A stretch of DNA of 64,000 bases. Origin: Cryomorphaceae bacterium (GTDB taxonomy: Bacteria; Bacteroidota; Bacteroidia; Flavobacteriales; Flavobacteriaceae). A program made the position numbers and the translations under genes. The stretch covers positions 1 to 64,000 of the forward strand of contig QOPV01000005.1 in assembly GCA_003331265.1 (NCBI GenBank), read 5' to 3'. Of this stretch, positions 1-6,808 are shown one piece after another. How positions within the stretch are numbered: position 1 is the first letter of the stretch; every line of letters begins with the position of its first letter. The notes beneath the pieces were generated by a model. It had not been told where the DNA came from and did not search any database. It saw nothing but the letters and a program-made list of their open reading frames with translations.

Positions 1-41
1 ACAAGTGGGATAAAAAGTAATAGTAGAAATAGTTTTTTCAT
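1..41 (-). CDS. 5' end of a secreted protein gene (partial, runs off left edge)
   Basis: Only the first 13 codons are in the window. They read MKKLFLLLLFIPL, a typical signal peptide beginning, and are almost identical to the start of the TonB-domain protein gene at 923-1375 (MKKLILLLLFIPLV). The start codon overlaps the stop of the upstream small gene (ATGA at 38-41), which suggests translational coupling. Inference: this is a second copy of the 923-1375 gene, or another gene that uses the same start module. The rest lies outside the window. Confidence 0.6.
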   Translation of the reverse strand, partial: MKKLFLLLLFIPL

Positions 42-187
42 TTTTTCTTTTTTTGTCTCTGCTCAAACATCTCGGCAAAACCTGCTAATCCTAAAAATAT
101 AAGAGCCCAATATGCCTGAATAACATCTATTCCAAAAATGTGAACAAGAGATATACCTAAAGATATTCCAATAAGAAATGTTTTCAT
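38..187 (-). CDS. Small single-span membrane protein (49 aa)
   Basis: No recognised family. The product is a short membrane protein: residues about 4-34 are hydrophobic, followed by a charged tail ending in KKKK. A longer reading from the ATG at 220 is possible, but the 33 nt before 187 are a repeated leader also found at 2046-2086, where the upstream ATG is out of frame with the gene. The start at 187 is therefore preferred. The stop overlaps the ATG of the next gene. The C-terminal half (…LAGFAEMFEQRQKKKK) resembles the shifted frame of the broken gene at 1755-1906 (…VGGLFELLYRKKLKK), so the two may be paralogues. Confidence 0.55.
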   Translation of the reverse strand: MKTFLIGISLGISLVHIFGIDVIQAYWALIFLGLAGFAEMFEQRQKKKK

Positions 188-226
188 AATTATAAATTTA
201 GTTGATTCTTTTAAGCTCATATTAAT
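185..226 (-). repeat. Repeated leader, copy 1 (partner at 2046-2086)
   Basis: On the minus strand both copies start ATTAATATGAGCTTAAAAG and continue AAT-AACTAA-TTT to the ATG of a small membrane gene. The two copies differ by a few substitutions and one length change, so the upstream ATG is in frame here but not in the other copy. The conserved part is therefore leader DNA rather than protein. The first bases also form an imperfect hairpin (about 212-235). Confidence 0.6.
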
Positions 227-261
227 GAGCTCAACCTACTTACGTGGATTGGAAGTTGCTG

Positions 262-293
262 AATTAAAAGAAGAATATATACCCACGGTTTTA
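262..293 (-). repeat. Imperfect 31-bp direct repeat, copy 1 (partner at 891-921)
   Basis: On the plus strand both copies begin AATTAAAAGAAGAA and continue ATAT-CC-A-GGTTT with about four mismatches in 31 positions. Each copy sits directly after the stop codon of a minus-strand gene (stop at 294-296 here, 923-925 in the other copy). It could be a decayed 3' coding remnant or a shared 3' untranslated module. No hairpin was seen in it. Confidence 0.5.
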
Positions 294-845
294 TTAGTAT
301 GAAAAATCTAATTCTTCTTGAGCTTTAGCTCTTTTATAAACATTGATTTTCTTTATTTTACCATCTTCAAAAAGTATATCGTGAACATTATATTCAAAAA
401 TTTCATTACCATTCTCGTCAACATCAGTATATTCATTTCCAGTTGTTAGCCACTGTTCTATAATACCATCTTTATTTTTTGCAGCATTAGCAATCATCCA
501 CTTTACTTCCCATTTTGGATTAGCATTTTTGAACCAATTATCTAAAATCTCAATGTGCGCTTTATTTCCCTTTACTACACTGCCATCCGCAGTATAACCT
601 TCCCAATCCTCAGCATTTATTTCCGCAATAATATCTAGATTTTTATCGTTGTGTGCTTGTATATATTTAATCCATATATCTTGATTTGAAGTTTCTCCGA
701 CAATTATAGGAGTCATTTCAGTAGTTCCGTCCATTAAAGCAGAACCAATTTCCAAGTTAGAATTATCATTTGAGTTTTGTTGTTGATTATCTGTACAGCC
801 AATTAGCAACATAATCAGCAATATGTAAGCAAAATTATTTTTCAT
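294..845 (-). CDS. SnoaL-like (NTF2 fold) lipoprotein
   Basis: The 183-residue product has a lipoprotein signal ending in the lipobox LLIGC (Cys at about 17 from the chosen start), then a Ser/Asn/Gln-rich linker and one NTF2-like domain from about residue 50. Visible family features are an N-terminal helix (IWIKYIQAHNDKNLD), a WEGY-ADGS strand, and the closing FEDGKIKKINVY strand. SnoaL-like lipoproteins of this kind are common in Flavobacteria and have no assigned reaction. The ATG at 843-845 was chosen because it places the hydrophobic core and lipobox normally; an upstream in-frame ATG at 878 adds only a poor extension. Comparable secreted proteins occur at 8118 and 47658. Confidence 0.7.
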   Translation of the reverse strand: MKNNFAYILLIMLLIGCTDNQQQNSNDNSNLEIGSALMDGTTEMTPIIVGETSNQDIWIKYIQAHNDKNLDIIAEINAEDWEGYTADGSVVKGNKAHIEILDNWFKNANPKWEVKWMIANAAKNKDGIIEQWLTTGNEYTDVDENGNEIFEYNVHDILFEDGKIKKINVYKRAKAQEELDFSY

Positions 846-890
846 TTTTATTAAAATTAAATTTATCATAATATACAATTTTTGATACTT

Positions 891-921
891 AATTAAAAGA
901 AGAAGATATGCCTATGGTTTA
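891..921 (-). repeat. Imperfect 31-bp direct repeat, copy 2 (partner at 262-293)
   Basis: This is the second copy of the AATTAAAAGAAGAA-led repeat. It lies immediately downstream of the stop codon of the TonB-domain gene at 923-1375 and upstream of the lipoprotein gene at 294-845. Confidence 0.5.
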
Positions 922-922
922 A

Positions 923-1375
923 CTACCTCAATTTCCAGGTAATAGGAATGCTATAAGGAACTCTTACAGGTTTTCCGTTAATTTTCCCGGGAATCAATTT
1001 AGGGAGTTTTTTAATTATTTTTACTGCTACATCTTCTAAGCTTTTATCTGGGCCTCTTGTCTTTATTTCACTTATACTTCCATCCTTTTCTATTATAAAT
1101 TGAATGAATACTCTCCCTTGGATTCCTCTATTTTGAGCATACTTAGGGTAATAAAAATGGTTAATTATATGTTTTTGTATTTTTTTTTGAAAGCAAATTC
1201 TTTGTTCTGATTTTAAAACATTCTTACAACTACGAAACAAAGGTACATCATCAAGATATAAAGCAGTTTGTGTTAACTCATAAAATGTCTTATCAAATGT
1301 CTTATCTTTTTTTTGAATTTCCTGCCCAAAACTCACAAGTGGAATAAACAGTAATAGTAGAATTAGTTTTTTCAT
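923..1375 (-). CDS. Secreted TonB C-terminal domain protein
   Basis: The 150-residue product has a signal peptide (MKKLILLLLFIPLVSFGQ, cleavage after FGQ) and a C-terminal TonB-type domain over about residues 75-150. Its typical features are NRGIQGRVFIQFIIEKDG, then ISEIKTRGPD, a helix with LEDVAVKIIKKLPK, and PGKINGKPVRVPYSIPITW. In Bacteroidetes such domains occur in TonB energy transducers and also in soluble periplasmic proteins. This one has no membrane anchor, so a soluble periplasmic role is inferred. The start lies 3 nt from the stop of the gene at 1379-1726. Its first codons are repeated at 1-41, 1723-1758 and 1903-1926. Confidence 0.75.
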   Translation of the reverse strand: MKKLILLLLFIPLVSFGQEIQKKDKTFDKTFYELTQTALYLDDVPLFRSCKNVLKSEQRICFQKKIQKHIINHFYYPKYAQNRGIQGRVFIQFIIEKDGSISEIKTRGPDKSLEDVAVKIIKKLPKLIPGKINGKPVRVPYSIPITWKLR

Positions 1376-1378
1376 TTA

Positions 1379-1726
1379 TTATAATTTATTCTTAAATAAT
1401 TTGTACATAAATATGCCGATAAATAAAACGATTGAAAGTATTATAAAATTGGTGAATAAATGAAATTCTGTAAAGTAATCTAAAAGACCATAAAATGGAA
1501 TAATCGCAAGAACAATTACAACTTCTTTATTTAAAAATTTCTTTTTCTTTTGTTGCTTAGAAAAAATATTAATTACAACTGATGCTAAAACAAAAATTGA
1601 TAGAACTAATGTTATATTTTGAGGATAAGCAAAAAGGTCATAAGTGTTAGAAAAATATTCAACAGCTAGTGACGCCACAAATAATATTAGTACTAAGTTC
1701 TTAGCTTTTTTCATTTTATTTTTCAT
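1379..1726 (-). CDS. Small membrane protein, about three spans (115 aa)
   Basis: No recognised family. Three to four hydrophobic segments (about residues 9-30, 35-57, 68-85 and 92-112) are separated by short charged loops, one of which is lysine-rich (KQQKKKKF). A second ATG five codons in (MKKAKNL) is an alternative start. The first ATG overlaps the stop of the 11-codon stub at 1723-1758 (ATGA), as for other genes in this string. Confidence 0.55.
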   Translation of the reverse strand: MKNKMKKAKNLVLILFVASLAVEYFSNTYDLFAYPQNITLVLSIFVLASVVINIFSKQQKKKKFLNKEVVIVLAIIPFYGLLDYFTEFHLFTNFIILSIVLFIGIFMYKLFKNKL

Positions 1727-1758
1727 TTAAACAGTAATAGTATAAGTAGTTTTTTCAT
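1723..1758 (-). pseudogene. Truncated gene start (11-codon MKKL stub)
   Basis: The reading frame MKKLLILLLFK then stop matches the beginning of the TonB-domain gene at 923-1375 and then ends. Its start overlaps the stop of the upstream frame (ATGA at 1755-1758) and its stop overlaps the next gene's ATG (1723-1726). Two explanations fit: a 5' remnant of a deleted copy of the 923-1375 gene, or a short leader ORF that couples translation. Confidence 0.5.
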
Positions 1759-1906
1759 TTCTTCAATTTTTTTCTGTAAAGTAACTCAAACAAACCTCCA
1801 ACAATAAATGCTGCAATAACACGCTCCAAAATCCAAGTTGTCTCCCTGCTAATAAAATAACAAGTATTAATAAAGAACTTATAATAAGGTATGCTTTGTT
1901 TGTCAT
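1755..1906 (-). pseudogene. Frameshifted small membrane protein gene
   Basis: From the ATG at 1904-1906 the frame starts as a membrane helix (MTNKAYLIISSLLILVI) and would run to a stop at 1763, giving 47 aa with an unconvincing tail. A neighbouring frame gives a far more protein-like tail (ETTWILERVIAAFIVGGL, then FELLYRKKLKK) ending at 1755, where its stop overlaps the next ATG in the same ATGA arrangement seen elsewhere. A single-base length change in the T-rich tract near 1855-1860 would join the two halves. The joined product resembles the intact 49-aa protein at 38-187. This is either a real frameshift or a sequencing error. Confidence 0.5.
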
Positions 1907-1926
1907 AGTACAATTAGTTTTTTCAT
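1903..1926 (-). pseudogene. Truncated gene start (7-codon MKKL stub)
   Basis: The frame reads MKKLIVL then stop. It has ATGA overlaps at both ends: its ATG overlaps the stop of the gene at 1923-2048, and its stop overlaps the ATG at 1904-1906. It matches the start of the 923-1375 gene. It may be a remnant or a coupling leader peptide. Confidence 0.45.
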
Positions 1927-2048
1927 ATTAAAAGATAAAATATATACATTAAGATTAGGCAAATAATAAATGCCCAAGGATATTTCTTAAAAAACTTAAT
2001 TATCATTTTAAGACCTTTCAAATCCTCTGATTCTTTATTTCCAAACAT
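1923..2048 (-). CDS. Small membrane protein (41 aa)
   Basis: The short frame begins MFGNKESEDLKGLKMIIKFF and ends in a single hydrophobic segment of about 17 residues (WAFIICLILMYIFYLLI). No family was recognised. It is supported by the repeated leader at 2046-2086 directly before its ATG and by the ATGA overlap with the following stub. It is the first gene of the small-gene string as transcribed. Confidence 0.45.
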   Translation of the reverse strand: MFGNKESEDLKGLKMIIKFFKKYPWAFIICLILMYIFYLLI

Positions 2049-2086
2049 AATTTAAAGTTAGTTAATTCTTTTAAGCTCATATTAAT
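2046..2086 (-). repeat. Repeated leader, copy 2 (partner at 185-226)
   Basis: This is the second copy of the ATTAATATGAGCTTAAAAG leader. Here the upstream ATG opens a frame of about 20 codons that is out of phase with the gene starting at 2048, so the conserved segment acts as leader DNA rather than coding sequence. Confidence 0.55.
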
Positions 2087-2442
2087 TACCTTAATCACCT
2101 CTGTAACTATCGCTTAATCAAAAATACCTAAAACATTAGTAATAAGTGGAAACACTTTTAAGTTTTGTCGTACATATGGTAAGACAAATAGAACTAAGAG
2201 ATTAAGTTTTTGGCGAAATACTTTGTACTTAATCTTTCTACTGTTCCAGACGACGTCCCTCTATTTATAGACACTAGATTGGAGGTTCTATAGAGTTTGT
2301 AGAATAAGTATTGTTAATAATTGTAGAAACATAAAATGTATTAAATTCGCAGTCAAATAGTTTAAAAAAAGCAACAAATGGGAACAATGGTGGGAACATT
2401 ATTTTATTTTGTTCTTTTTATAAGTTATTTTAACAGAGTAAA
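2087..2442. other. Gene-free region between small-gene string and tRNA-Arg
   Basis: About 356 bases without a convincing gene. It holds a hairpin with perfect 9-base arms (2199-2207 and 2227-2235, loop 19 nt) and two direct copies of GGGAACA near 2380-2400, just before the tRNA. Short repeats beside a tRNA can be traces of an integrated element, but no integrase frame was found here. The promoter of the tRNA should lie in the last 60 bases; I could not identify it with confidence. Confidence 0.4.
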
Positions 2443-2516
2443 GGCCTCGTAGCATAACTGAATAGTGCATCTGATTACGGCTCAGAAGGTTGCAGGTTTG
2501 AATCCTGCCGAGGTCA
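2443..2516 (+). tRNA. tRNA-Arg (anticodon ACG)
   Basis: A full cloverleaf of 74 nt can be drawn. The acceptor stem is 2443-2449 with 2509-2515 (one G-T pair), the D arm GCAT/GTGC, and the anticodon stem TCTGA/TCAGA with loop TTACGGC. The anticodon ACG is at 2477-2479 and the T stem is GCAGG/CCTGC. The discriminator base is A and CCA is not encoded. ACG reads CGN arginine codons after A34 is changed to inosine. The D loop has G18-A19 instead of G18-G19 and the T loop has T56 instead of C56, so the elbow pair 19-56 would be A-U rather than G-C. Confidence 0.93.
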
Positions 2517-2521
2517 CTAAT

Positions 2522-2553
2522 AGGATTGTAGAAATACAGTCCTTTTTTTTTTT
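2522..2553 (+). terminator. Rho-independent terminator after tRNA-Arg
   Basis: A 9-bp stem (AGGATTGTA / TACAGTCCT, one wobble pair) with a GAAA loop is followed by a run of 11 T. It begins 6 nt after the tRNA and ends its transcript. Confidence 0.85.
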
Positions 2554-2657
2554 AAGATCACGTATTCCGATTTTACATAAAAAAATAGATTTATTAAATG
2601 AAATCTAATTTGATTCCCTTTTTATAAATAACTATATTGTTATTAAAATTTTATTCT

Positions 2658-4694
2658 ATGAAAAAGAAAGCTTTATTAATTATATTTTTCTTGTTTTCTA
2701 TTACACTAACATCGCAAGAAAAAAATCTTATTTCAGACTTAGATGAACTTAAGCTAAATATTGGAGAGGTTTACAAACCGAATACATATAGTGTTGATAA
2801 TCAAGGAAAAAAATATGATTGTGAAAGAGTTATATATTATAATAAAAAAGGAACTTTTAGCTCAGCAAATGCTATTGAATTTGACAGAAATGAAGGAACA
2901 TTAAAAGGCATTGAACCTGGTTATCACGAGGTAGTTGCAATTTGCTATAGCAGCGGAACTAGTTCTAGAAGATCATTTAACGTTACAGTAAATTATCCCA
3001 AAGCAAAAAGTATAAATATTTTAACTGGTAGTAACACAATTTACAACAATACATACATACCACTTTCATATGAAATAACTGATGAAATGGGTGTAACTAG
3101 AGATATTGATTACTGGAAATCAGATAATGCTGAAAGGTATTTTTCCAATTTAGAATTTTCCATCACCTCGGATAATAATAAACTAGATATTGATGAATCA
3201 AATAATGTATTAGCAGTAAAACAAGGATCTTCTACTATTAACATAGTTTTTGATGGAGTAAAATCATCAAAAAATATTATTATAAAAAAAAATCCTGTTG
3301 TAAATATTGATTTGAAATTAGAAAATAGTGAAAAATTTAAAACCGGAGATGTTTTGAATTTTAATGCAATTCCTTATGACAAGAAGGGAAATATAATTAA
3401 AGATATTAATATTGATTTTTCATTTAAAGGAAAATCTTTTGACAAAAGTAATTCAGCTTCAGGATTAATACTTCAAGATGGAAGATTTGTGGGAGATGTT
3501 GCAGGAAAATATATTATAAGCGCATCATTTGGAAACGTATCAAAATCTAAGGTTGTAAATGTTTTTGAAAGAAATATTAAACGAGAAGTTAAAAATATTG
3601 GTACAGGCCTGGTAAATGACAAACATACATCTGACTTTTGGGTTTTTGAAGGGGTTGATAAAAGAGATTATGCTGTTACAGGGACTTGGGGTGCTGATGG
3701 AACAGCATATTTTTGGGATGTAACCAATCCATCCAACATTAAAAAAATTGACAGTGTACAAGTAGATGCGAGAACCGTAAATGATGTTAAAGTTTCTCCA
3801 AATGGTAAAATTTGTATTATTAGTAGAGAAGGAGCATCAAATCGAAAAAATGGAATAATCATAATTGATGTTACAAACCCTTATGATGTTCAAATAATTA
3901 AAGAATACACGAAAAATCTTACTGGTGGCGTACATAATTTATTTATAGATGAAAAACATGTATATGCTCTAAGTGCAGGTCAAAAATATTATATTCTAAA
4001 TATCGAAGATCCTAAAAACCCGGTTGAAGTAGGTATGTTTGAGGTTGGTAAGAATGGTCAATCGATTCATGACGTGTGGGTTGAAAATGGGATTGCTTAT
4101 TCATCAAATTGGAGAGATGGCGTGTATCTTGTAGATGTAGGAAATGGAATAGCAGGTGGTTCTCCATCAAATCCTGTAGCATTTGGAAATTATACATATG
4201 ACAGTGGAGCGAATCATGCAACATTTCCTTTTAAAAGTAAATCTACTGGAAAATTTTATGCTGTTATGGGAGATGAAATATTTCCCAATGGTGTAAATCC
4301 ATATGGGACTAACGAAACTGCTGGGTTTTTACACTTTGTTGATTTTTCAGATGTTAAAAATCCTATTGAAATTGCTCGTTATGAGCTACCAGGTCATGGG
4401 TCACATAATTACTGGATTGATGATGATATTCTTTATGTTGGAATGTATACTGGTGGAGTTAGAATAATTGACATAAGTGGAGACCTTTTAGGCGATCTTT
4501 ACAAGCAAGGAAGAGAAATTGGATACATTCTAACGGGATCAGCTGATGGTTATATTCCTAATGATACAATGGTCTGGGGAGCCCAACTTTACAAAGGCCA
4601 TGTCTTTTATTCTGATTTTAATACAGGAATTGGAGTTGCAAAAGTATCCGAAGTCAAACCAGACTCATCTATGCAAAATCAATATATTGACTAA
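2658..4694 (+). CDS. Secreted LVIVD-repeat beta-propeller protein, copy 1
   Basis: The 678-residue product has a signal peptide (MKKKALLIIFFLF…LTSQ). Residues about 25-310 form Ig-like or bacterial-Ig-like beta domains, and about 320-670 a propeller built of LVIVD repeats, shown by recurring motifs such as YFWDVTNPSNIKKIDS, IIIIDVTNPYDVQII and VYLVDVGNG. LVIVD proteins are secreted or cell-surface propellers with no assigned reaction. Two Cys in the first domain (…YDCERV…VAICYS) are kept in the paralogue at 4730 and probably form a disulphide. The ATG at 2658 fits the signal peptide better than the upstream ATG at 2637. It is followed 35 nt later by its paralogue. Confidence 0.8.
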   Translation: MKKKALLIIFFLFSITLTSQEKNLISDLDELKLNIGEVYKPNTYSVDNQGKKYDCERVIYYNKKGTFSSANAIEFDRNEGTLKGIEPGYHEVVAICYSSGTSSRRSFNVTVNYPKAKSINILTGSNTIYNNTYIPLSYEITDEMGVTRDIDYWKSDNAERYFSNLEFSITSDNNKLDIDESNNVLAVKQGSSTINIVFDGVKSSKNIIIKKNPVVNIDLKLENSEKFKTGDVLNFNAIPYDKKGNIIKDINIDFSFKGKSFDKSNSASGLILQDGRFVGDVAGKYIISASFGNVSKSKVVNVFERNIKREVKNIGTGLVNDKHTSDFWVFEGVDKRDYAVTGTWGADGTAYFWDVTNPSNIKKIDSVQVDARTVNDVKVSPNGKICIISREGASNRKNGIIIIDVTNPYDVQIIKEYTKNLTGGVHNLFIDEKHVYALSAGQKYYILNIEDPKNPVEVGMFEVGKNGQSIHDVWVENGIAYSSNWRDGVYLVDVGNGIAGGSPSNPVAFGNYTYDSGANHATFPFKSKSTGKFYAVMGDEIFPNGVNPYGTNETAGFLHFVDFSDVKNPIEIARYELPGHGSHNYWIDDDILYVGMYTGGVRIIDISGDLLGDLYKQGREIGYILTGSADGYIPNDTMVWGAQLYKGHVFYSDFNTGIGVAKVSEVKPDSSMQNQYID

Positions 4695-4729
4695 TTAATA
4701 AAAACATCAACTTTAAATCAAAAATTATC

Positions 4730-6808
4730 ATGAAATACTTAATTACCTTATTACTTTTTATTTTTTCTTTTCAGTTTAATCTTTCACAAAATCAAACAAT
4801 TGAATCAAATTTAGAAGGTTTAGTCTTAGAGATTGGTGATTCTTTTACACCTGAATCATTTGTTAGGACATCGGACGGAACTCAAAGGGATTGTCAAGCT
4901 ATTATTTACTACAATAAAAAAGGGGTGTTTAATGTTGGTGGTTCAATAGTACAGGATCCATCAACTGGAAAAATTATTGCCAATGAACCAGGTGAACATG
5001 AAGTTGTTGCCGTTTGTGTAGATTCTAGAAATAATGGGAATAGACTTAGTCAAACATTCCTAGTAACAGTCAAGTTTACAAAAACAAAATCTATTTTACT
5101 TGATATTGAAAATGAAACATTTACAGGCAATTACATACCGTATTCCTACAGTACTATCACTGAAAATGGACTTAAAAGAAATGATCTTATTGTTAACGTA
5201 ACATCCTCAAGCCCAGAAATAATAAATGTGGAATCAAATAATTTATTGAAAGCATCAAATAAAGGCGAAGCTAATATAACTTTTGAAGTTGATGGTGTAA
5301 AAATGACTAAAAAAGTTAAAGTAAAAAACAACCCTGTTAGTTCCTTAAATATAAGAATAAGTGAAACCTCAATAAGAACTGGAGATGTTGTTAACATCGA
5401 GACTAAAATGTATGATAAAAAAGGAAAAAAAATTGAAGGGCTAGCCCCAGTATTTTCTTTTCATGGAGAATCCTTTGACGGCAGTAATTCCGCTTCTGGT
5501 TTGATTAAAAATAATAAGTTTGTCGCTGATGTTGCTGGGCTTTATACTGTTAATGCATCTTTTGGAAATATAACATCATCAACTAAAATTAAAGTTACAG
5601 ATAGAGATGTCAAAAAAAATATAGTTCAGTTAGGTATCGGAAGTGTTTTTGACAAACCTTCATCAGATGCATGGTTTTTTGAAGGAGTTGATGGAAAAGA
5701 TTATGGTGTATCAGGTACTTTTTTTGATGGACTCGCCTACTTTTGGGATATTTCAGACCCAAAAAATATTAAAAAAATTGATAGTATAAAAGTTGATGCT
5801 AGGATCGTAAATGACGTAAAAGTTTCAAAAGATTCAAAAATATGCGTAATTACAAGAGAAGGTGCATCAAACAGAAAAAATGGTTTAATCATACTGGATG
5901 TTTCAAATCCGAGTGATGTAAAAATACTTTCGGAGTATACCGATGGTTTAACTGGTGGTGTTCATAATATTTTTATTGATAACAATCATGTCTATGCATT
6001 AAATGCATTTGGTAACCCCTCAAAATTTGAAGTTATAAATATTGAAGATCCTAAAAACCCAAAAGGAGTTGGAGTTTTTGAACTTGAATTAGGTTCTGCT
6101 ATTCATGACATATGGATTGAAGACGGAATAGCCTATACATCAAATTGGAAAGATGGATTATACATAGTAGATATCGGTAACGGTATAGCCGGAGGCTCTC
6201 CTTCAAATCCGGTAGCTATTGCTAATTATAAGTATAAAACAGGAGCAAATCATGCAGCATTTCCATTTAAAAGTAAATCTACAGGAAAATTTTATGTTGT
6301 TCTTGGGGATGAAATTTTCCCTGACGGAGTAGATTTTTTCTCATCCAATGAAACAACAGGATTTTTACATTTTGTAGATTTTTCAGATTTAAAAAATCCA
6401 AAAGAGGTAGCTAGGTTTGAAGTACCGGGTTACGGATCTCACAACTTTTGGGTTGAAGATGACGTAGTTTACGCAGCGATGTACAACGGAGGTGTAAGAG
6501 TAATTGATGTAAGTGGAGAGCTGTTAGGTGATTTATATAAGCAAGGGAGAGAAATAGCAGCATTCAAAACAGGTTCTCCCAATGGTTTTATTCCGAATAG
6601 TACAATGACTTGGGGAGCACAATATTTTAAAGGAAATATTTTTTACTCAGATTTAAATGCTGGAATTGGTGCTTTAAAATTATTAGATTCAAAACCGGAT
6701 AATTCAAAATCAATGCAATTCACAACAGACAAATCTCTTGATCTTTTATTTGGAGCAAAAAATCTGATAGAATTATTTGAATATCTTGAAAGTCCACCAA
6801 TTGAATAA
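4730..6808 (+). CDS. Secreted LVIVD-repeat beta-propeller protein, copy 2
   Basis: The 692-residue product is a tandem paralogue of 2658-4694, alignable end to end: signal peptide (ending LSQ), Ig-like N-terminal half with the same Cys pair, then LVIVD propeller (AYFWDISDPKNIKKIDS, LIILDVSNPSDVKIL, LYIVDIGNG). It differs by an extra C-terminal tail of about 30 residues (SMQFTTDKSLDLLFGAK…ESPPIE). No catalytic motif was seen. The YncE-like gene follows after one base, so the three genes look like one operon. Confidence 0.8.
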   Translation: MKYLITLLLFIFSFQFNLSQNQTIESNLEGLVLEIGDSFTPESFVRTSDGTQRDCQAIIYYNKKGVFNVGGSIVQDPSTGKIIANEPGEHEVVAVCVDSRNNGNRLSQTFLVTVKFTKTKSILLDIENETFTGNYIPYSYSTITENGLKRNDLIVNVTSSSPEIINVESNNLLKASNKGEANITFEVDGVKMTKKVKVKNNPVSSLNIRISETSIRTGDVVNIETKMYDKKGKKIEGLAPVFSFHGESFDGSNSASGLIKNNKFVADVAGLYTVNASFGNITSSTKIKVTDRDVKKNIVQLGIGSVFDKPSSDAWFFEGVDGKDYGVSGTFFDGLAYFWDISDPKNIKKIDSIKVDARIVNDVKVSKDSKICVITREGASNRKNGLIILDVSNPSDVKILSEYTDGLTGGVHNIFIDNNHVYALNAFGNPSKFEVINIEDPKNPKGVGVFELELGSAIHDIWIEDGIAYTSNWKDGLYIVDIGNGIAGGSPSNPVAIANYKYKTGANHAAFPFKSKSTGKFYVVLGDEIFPDGVDFFSSNETTGFLHFVDFSDLKNPKEVARFEVPGYGSHNFWVEDDVVYAAMYNGGVRVIDVSGELLGDLYKQGREIAAFKTGSPNGFIPNSTMTWGAQYFKGNIFYSDLNAGIGALKLLDSKPDNSKSMQFTTDKSLDLLFGAKNLIELFEYLESPPIE

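Follow-up and report, generated by a model that had tools for sequence, protein, structure and literature searches.

A probable remnant of an integron-like cassette array with tyrosine recombinase tails in a Cryomorphaceae bacterium

We analyzed a 64,000-nucleotide stretch of DNA from a Cryomorphaceae bacterium, referred to here as the window (G000:C39:1-64000), which belongs to a 1.53-Mb, 80%-complete genome in 43 contigs. Sequence comparison leads us to read positions 1 to 2100 of the window as the decayed fragment of a cassette array made by a tyrosine recombinase that inserts cassettes at the 3′ terminus of the gene encoding it (int), a reading to which we assign a probability of roughly 0.77. 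The system would be integron-like, with the end of int as the putative attachment site. The 3′ repeat of the window, present at 233-293 and 888-921, corresponds to the end of a recombinase gene, which leads us to favor cassette insertion over duplication and trimming. An earlier, sequence-only reading of this DNA had proposed the repeated duplication of a unit made of a small membrane protein and a TonB-domain protein, shortened by recombination at shared starts, or alternatively that very short genes (stubs) act as coupling leader peptides. Its shared-start recombination and its coupling stubs find support below; its unit duplication does not, and the integrase tail had been missed.

The 3′ repeat and its recombinase

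On the plus strand, the 3′ repeat translates into TYLRGLEVAELKEE(D)MPMV-like peptides, and its copy at 891-922 is matched in 32 of 32 bases elsewhere in the same genome (G000:C10). A 77-codon piece in a genome of the same genus (G013:C45) runs upstream into a tyrosine-recombinase catalytic domain; it matches PF00589 with an E value of 3.3e-5 but at 24.2 bits, under the cutoff of 27.1. Judged by translation and by alignment with other copies, the repeat at both positions in the window is the C-terminal end of a tyrosine recombinase, and we call these copies tails. When named genomes were scanned with the 77-codon piece, the best 78 of 167 matches were taken as loci. They were mostly titled Flavobacteriales, Flavobacteriaceae, or Bacteroidetes, and three were titled from other phyla (Rhodobacteraceae, Nitrospirae, and Rokubacteria), which we take for binning errors. 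Many titles of int-bearing records look marine.

Full-length int proteins match PF00589 at 41 to 50 bits in all seven cases tested, and each of the 36 aligned sequences has R209, K237, R297, H320, and Y329. We take these to be the catalytic R, K, R, H, and Y, the first His being Tyr here. A structure model (mean pLDDT, 86.8; pTM, 0.60) places three N-terminal strands ahead of the core-binding helices and leaves the C-terminal tail poorly ordered. The best Foldseek matches were lambda Int, IntI, and Tn1549 Int, with query TM-scores of 0.30 to 0.48 and 13 to 18% identity among the 50 matches listed, and lambda Int, IntI, Tn1549 Int, Xer, and Cre were about equally distant from the model. The sole match in a PDB sequence search at an E value of ≤0.001 was archaeal XerA (4A8E). 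At an E value of ≤1e-60, a sample of 395 genomes of the order contained int in 19 cases, and a sample of 395 genomes of the phylum contained it in 2, both of the latter distant and without a repeated tail. A phage or plasmid origin of int was rejected, as one int query gave no tblastn match at an E value of ≤1e-20 among 72,556 plasmid and 50,697 phage records; IMG/VR likewise held no confirmed int match.

Tails form arrays downstream of int

Tails were located with a 23-base core pattern that allowed up to five mismatches and had no match in 386 kb of shuffled sequence. This gave 233 tail sites, 68 of them at int genes, and in 53 of these 68 int-bearing loci the int open reading frame (ORF) spans at least 330 codons from stop to stop. 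Around the 53 full-length genes, orphan tails number 40 on the downstream side (315 kb) and 3 on the upstream side (383 kb), and 21 of the 53 loci have at least one downstream tail. Orphan tails are on the int strand, as direct repeats, in 89 of 93 cases in int loci; one site counted as an orphan tail (L143:1052) is the end of an int gene with a premature stop. These direct repeats are int's own last ~22 codons, spaced by unrelated small genes, and comparison with the local int shows identity increasing at −65 and decreasing at +10 relative to the core.

In 94 of 117 distinct segments between successive tails (median, 810 bp), the longest ORF runs opposite to int. Among the cassette proteins of at least 60 amino acids, 74 of 93 were scanned, yielding 44 Pfam families at an E value of ≤1e-5 with no more than two members each. 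Ten PADLOC models were matched, each in 1 of the 74 proteins; defense is therefore not a general feature of the arrays, and their interpretation as defense islands was rejected. Many tails also occur in OX044355.1, a 2.3-Mb single-contig Polaribacter chromosome (a metagenome-assembled genome), where one locus carries an intact int (L134) and another has 13 motif matches including a 79-codon int remnant (L144), which speaks against an assembly artifact. In 4 of 11 further int regions, a set that includes the two distant int genes of the phylum, the gene likewise repeats its own 3′ end. The copies number one downstream in G145, one downstream plus one upstream at another int in G401, and four in G317.

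Predicted exchange at a conserved core before the int stop codon

The ends of int proteins differ by locus after GATATGCC/DMP, continuing as MV, IF, MYN, RID, SL, ILL, MIY, and others. Among 73 int ORFs whose products end in DMP followed by a short tail, counted independently of the DNA pattern, the core Asp codon was GAT in 72, while Asp codons elsewhere in int genes are 525 GAT to 335 GAC (of 860). We then compared 28 pairs of loci, representing 15 independent cassettes, that share the right-hand body and not the left-hand one. Mean identity in the bodies is 94%, versus 66% ungapped (background, 57%) or 75% gapped (background, 67%) in the tails, and the jump from tail to body falls between about −9 and 0. 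On this contrast, the predicted strand exchange maps to GATATGCC, a nearly invariant sequence located a few codons ahead of the int stop. The same body can also be found in different contexts, following a full-length int in one locus and an internal tail in another (L116 and L162, 99%; L117 and L111, 96%; L132 and L181, 91%).

Boundaries of shared sequence point the same way. Cross-genome high-scoring segment pairs (HSPs) of at least 150 bp and 88% identity, with the int coding sequence excluded, provided 108 distinct sides. The right end coincides with the site in 23 of the 108 (mean for random positions, 1.4; maximum in 500 runs, 6), the start lies in a tail in 42 (random, 5.0; maximum, 13), and both hold in 9 (random, 0.09; maximum, 2).

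Sequence comparison establishes what the tails are, the order of the arrays, where the boundary lies, and that cassettes are shared between contexts; the mechanism would in addition involve a circular intermediate, int as the catalyst, start modules as sites of homologous recombination, and coupled translation. A circular cassette would carry one ~75-bp site, consisting of the last ~22 int codons and ~10 bp. Recombination with the matching stretch of int would take place at GATATGCC, the exchange being predicted within GATATGCC/TATGGTTTA. The int reading frame would be kept, its last few residues and stop codon being supplied by the cassette, and the cassette's own tail would end up at the far side as the boundary to the next cassette. 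Cassette genes would mostly be opposed to int, with part of the tails carrying a putative TAnnTTTG promoter just before the gene. The start modules described below (an ATG plus signal peptide) may offer a second homologous junction for swapping 5′ ends, and bodies behind a truncated start module could survive through ATGA coupling to its translation start.

Start modules, stubs, and expression signals

The small genes described in the window are all on the minus strand, and we recovered the repeated elements on which the sequence-only reading was based: four MKKL starts (at 41, 1375, 1758, and 1926), two stubs, two copies each of a leader and of the 3′ repeat, and ATGA stop/start overlaps at all five positions (38, 1723, 1755, 1903, and 1923). 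In BLASTN comparisons, the start modules at 1-46 and 1335-1380 are 91% identical (E value, 4.5e-12). Recombination at shared starts, which that reading had proposed, agrees with our finding that 20 of 129 HSP sides begin at a start-module ATG, compared with 4.9 at random (maximum, 13 in 500 runs).

Stubs of fewer than 35 codons account for 29 of 101 start modules. Seven of these 29 end in an ATGA from which an ORF of 35 or more codons begins (about five independent cases, two pairs each being one stub in two genomes), compared with 4 of the 69 modules whose ORFs have 60 or more codons, and three stub-plus-gene pairs are kept between genomes, with homology beginning at or near the stub ATG. The recurrence of ATGA stubs in relatives suggests translational coupling, in line with the alternative offered earlier. 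We infer that stubs are start modules that became joined to a different body and are retained when ATGA coupling sustains its translation.

The stubs might instead be functional leader peptides conserved for their peptide, which we consider unlikely. Some are indeed retained: MKKLxLLL-stop/ATGA in G016 and G015, MKKLI(V/L)L-stop/ATGA in the window and G014, and MKKLILLLWI-stop in G014 and G007. The conserved part, however, is the common start module at the DNA level, and the same small gene is followed by an 11-codon stub in the window, by a 9-codon GTG-start stub in G014, and by a 327-codon ORF in G016. In addition, a stub is retained before a broken gene in the window's own genome (L012), and the leader peptide farther upstream is not kept.

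That leader forms a third repeat family, conserved at the DNA level (185-226 and 2031-2118 in the window) and sometimes located between a tail and a gene start. Its copies at 185-234 and 2046-2094 are 88% identical (E value, 1.9e-10 by BLASTN). A conserved leader peptide was ruled out, since the module reads ATGAGTTAA in L051 and L054. On the opposite strand, the module in L011 reads ..NLINSVTIA followed by a stop.

A subset of tails may also supply a promoter. TAnnTTTG, described as the Bacteroidetes −7 element (PMC6847099), occurs 60 to 69 nucleotides from the core with 29 matches in 159 orphan tails, about a fifth (shuffled sequence, 1.2). A looser form at 55 to 110 nucleotides is present in 52 of the 159 (shuffled mean, 15.3; maximum, 25), with the start codon most often 3 to 4 nucleotides further on. 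According to the same source, Shine-Dalgarno sequences are absent from members of the phylum, and adenine at −3 favors initiation (PMC6847099); a mobile start module beginning ATGAAAAAA would fit such initiation.

Alternative origins of the arrays

Several observations weigh against a cassette array built by int. The window's own genome, 80% complete, has no int match at an E value of ≤1e-60, and among 22 genus genomes the whole 77-codon int piece was matched in G013 only, at a contig end. Because of this missing match, and because the core of tail 1 has mutated to TATATACC, we read the window as an orphan, decaying array. No downstream tail was recognized in 32 of the 53 full-length int loci; the contig continues for less than 1.5 kb downstream in 14 of the 53 and ends within 3 kb in 20. 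Similarly, 7 of the 11 further int regions have no repeated tail of their own; one of them has 16 bp left, and L204, L205, L206, L211, and L212 have several kilobases of downstream sequence. In L208, the tail copy lies upstream. Between −65 and −30, the identity of the tails to int takes intermediate values (0.53 to 0.76), as many tails are truncated or have diverged. Orphan tails are 73% identical to the local int versus 69% to others (median rank, 10 of 68). In 67 pairs sharing only the left body, tails are 82% and bodies 88% identical, and most of the pairs listed include int. In six hand-picked pairs without int, tails are 74 to 97% (gapped) and bodies 93 to 97% identical. On these figures, the tie of tail to left body is real on average but loose. 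Finally, 85 of 108 HSP sides have no right end at the site, and other rearrangements must therefore be common, and no inverted core-binding pair was defined.

The arrays could alternatively be relics of accretion, in which whole int elements inserted serially at one site and later lost int, with no single-gene cassettes involved. We regard this as improbable. Some tails do reach further into int (L179:2386 and L182:8034), and in S_MB185 (L135) a second, shorter int ORF lies 4.6 kb upstream of the intact gene. However, the identity of tails to int drops at about −66 on average and does not fade gradually, and complete tail-to-tail bodies of 340 to 580 bp with no int inside recur in different genomes.

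Less probable still is that homologous recombination alone, by RecA-type exchange or natural transformation through short repeats, swapped the genes with int as a bystander. Start-module junctions do behave like plain homologous recombination, and no recombinase is linked to them. At the tails, in contrast, identity breaks at one conserved 8-bp core and not across the 75-bp repeat, the tails are found downstream of int and on its strand, and the repeats in G145 and G401 match the local, diverged int end at 80 to 90% identity.

We give almost no credence to the repeated duplication of a membrane-plus-TonB unit: although the shared starts and stubs are real, the window proteins are mutually unrelated (best blastp E value, 0.10 over 11 residues), the 3′ repeat is the integrase tail, and the block at 888-1378 recurs at 99.6% identity in a second genome of the genus (G016:C6:713-1203), where the sequence on both sides differs. 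The repeating parts, by their sequence, are short modules around different bodies.

Anatomy of the window

Base 1 of the window is the end of contig C39, and the array can therefore not be extended leftward. A start module at 1-41 (minus strand), an ATG and signal-peptide start reading MKKLFLLLLFIPL.., fits the 39-mer start pattern with three mismatches and belongs to a gene truncated by the contig end. It is joined by an ATGA overlap at its start (41) to the gene of a 60-amino-acid small protein, membrane by eye, at 38-220 (minus), a region with a 90% DNA match over 10-206 in G016:C1. Leader copy 1 (185-226, minus), a 5′-region module with copies in relatives, precedes tail 1 (233-293, plus), which reads as the 3′ end of a tyrosine-recombinase gene (TYLRGLEVAELKEEYIPTV) with the decayed core noted above. 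Between the tails, the window's single complete tail-to-tail cassette contains a gene at 294-845 (minus) for a 183-amino-acid protein that appears lipoprotein-like by eye and has only sub-threshold SnoaL and DinB Pfam matches; positions 290-881 match G010 at 84%, and 298-921 match G008 at 83%. By pattern and alignment, tail 2 (888-921, plus) has an intact GATATGCC core and is truncated at about −24.

Beyond tail 2, the gene of a TonB_C protein (923-1375, minus; PF03544, E value 8.9e-17) has the full start module MKKLILLLLFIPLVSFGQ. The gene at 1379-1726 (minus) encodes a 115-amino-acid protein, membrane by eye, whose start is inside the ATGA overlap with the 11-codon stub MKKLLILLLFK-stop (1758-1723, minus). 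Between the two stubs lies a 47-amino-acid small gene (1763-1906, minus) that has 7 bp fewer than the 52-amino-acid form in G014 and G016 and is frameshifted relative to it; the ATGA overlap at 1755 is a feature of this gene's ancestral frame. The 7-codon stub MKKLIVL-stop (1926-1903, minus), also with an ATGA overlap, has the counterpart MKKLILL-stop in G014. To its right are a 41-amino-acid small protein gene, membrane by eye (1923-2048, minus), and leader copy 2 (2031-2118, minus), again with copies in relatives. The tRNA-Arg(ACG) at 2443-2517 (plus) marks the right edge of the array remnant, and in an Rfam scan of 1-3000 this tRNA alone reached the gathering score. Beside the array, 2637-6808 encodes two adjacent proteins of ~690 amino acids whose DNA shows 69% identity across 557 bp. 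The second contains LVIVD repeats, and the pair looks like an ordinary tandem duplication.

Modules across the genus

Positions 1-2600 of the window were matched in 38 of 40 relatives, many through the tRNA only, and among the matches listed the modules lie in dense arrays, often near contig ends. A 32-mer of the tail (up to three mismatches) was found in 19 of 22 genus genomes and the 39-mer of the start in 17 of 22; the reversed patterns had no match in the same 22 genomes, and the repeats are thus far beyond chance.

Of the 21 genus genomes whose tRNA-Arg(ACG) is among the matches listed, at least 7 (G000, G006, G007, G008, G011, G016, and G019; counted by eye) have tail or start modules within ~4 kb of this tRNA, an apparent hotspot. 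Contig ends in G000, G016, and G009 are close to tail, leader, or start modules (L009, L010, L011, L014, L195, L197, and L200), and draft genomes therefore probably under-report the arrays. In L059:2-733 (G010:C1), the int C-terminal tail continues in frame into a fragment of a beta-galactosidase small chain (PF02929), possibly a read-through fusion at a contig end.

Implications

Integrons are the textbook gene-capture platform and are rarely reported from Bacteroidota. We consider it slightly better than an even bet that Flavobacteriales evolved, independently of IntI, a capture platform that lands at the 3′ coding end of its recombinase, in which the captured gene rewrites the C-terminal residues and a start-plus-signal-peptide module turns bodies into exported proteins. 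If so, this would be a second, nonhomologous solution with integron logic. Each captured gene would rewrite residues beyond the catalytic tyrosine, so that the enzyme's activity could be tuned by the cassette it inserted last. Such a system would also explain how small-genome flavobacteria gain and lose small exported proteins, would account for the breaks that many of these assemblies show at the arrays, would provide a natural test of a recombinase coevolving with a site inside its own gene, and may offer a new recombination tool.

Comparison with known systems

Among the papers listed in our searches of the open-access (PMC) literature, with preprints and subscription journals outside their scope, none described this system. 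A shufflon or invertible array was rejected, as 89 of the 93 tails in int loci are direct and not inverted repeats. The three N-terminal strands of the int model are shared with integrases of the lambda, Tn1549, and CTnDOT type, as an arm-binding domain would have; in such a domain, the N-terminal strands precede the core-binding helices. The low TM-scores and identities given above set int apart from this type.

Suicidal integrases of archaea (SSV, pTN3, and pT26-2) share with int an att site within the integrase gene. Integration of that type splits the gene, and the type is stated to be exclusive to archaea (PMC8371274). In contrast, only the last residues would be replaced here, and most int-bearing loci retain a full-length ORF. 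PF16795 (Phage_integr_3) gave no match above its cutoff, all seven int proteins matching PF00589 only. In Islander-type tRNA islands, the target gene has its 3′ end restored by the incoming element (PMC4383910). Restoration of a 3′ end would be common to both systems, and modules lie close to tRNA-Arg in several genomes; unlike in the Islander type, the gene restored here would be the integrase itself, and the tail is not a tRNA end.

A canonical integron was rejected on IntI score, attC folding, and attC motifs. None of the 22 genus genomes had a match above the cutoff of the IntI model (TIGR02249; 265 bits), against which the int proteins scored 17 to 30 bits in all seven cases tested. Of 231 distinct sites, 80 were folded as single-stranded DNA with no attC-like fold (mean z, 0.2 and −0.04 for the two strands). 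RYYYAAC and GTTRRRY, which we take to be the R″/R′ attC motifs, occurred together in 2 of the 231 (shuffles, 1.7). The integron site is an upstream attI, located on the upstream side of intI, whereas here the site is the 3′ coding end of int and the array lies downstream. Integron cassettes are mostly promoterless and transcribed from a single platform promoter; some cassettes here carry a candidate promoter (TAnnTTTG), which may be a further difference. For Bacteroidetes proper, IntegronFinder 2.0 gives one complete integron, in Salinibacter ruber (PMC9024848).

In its organization, the system nonetheless resembles integrons and clusters of attC sites lacking an integrase (CALIN). Single-gene cassettes are arrayed next to a tyrosine recombinase, each with one putative recombination site, and most of their genes point the same way; different arrays have cassettes in common, and some arrays lack an integrase. 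As in integrons, shared cassettes have boundaries at the site, in keeping with exchange between arrays.

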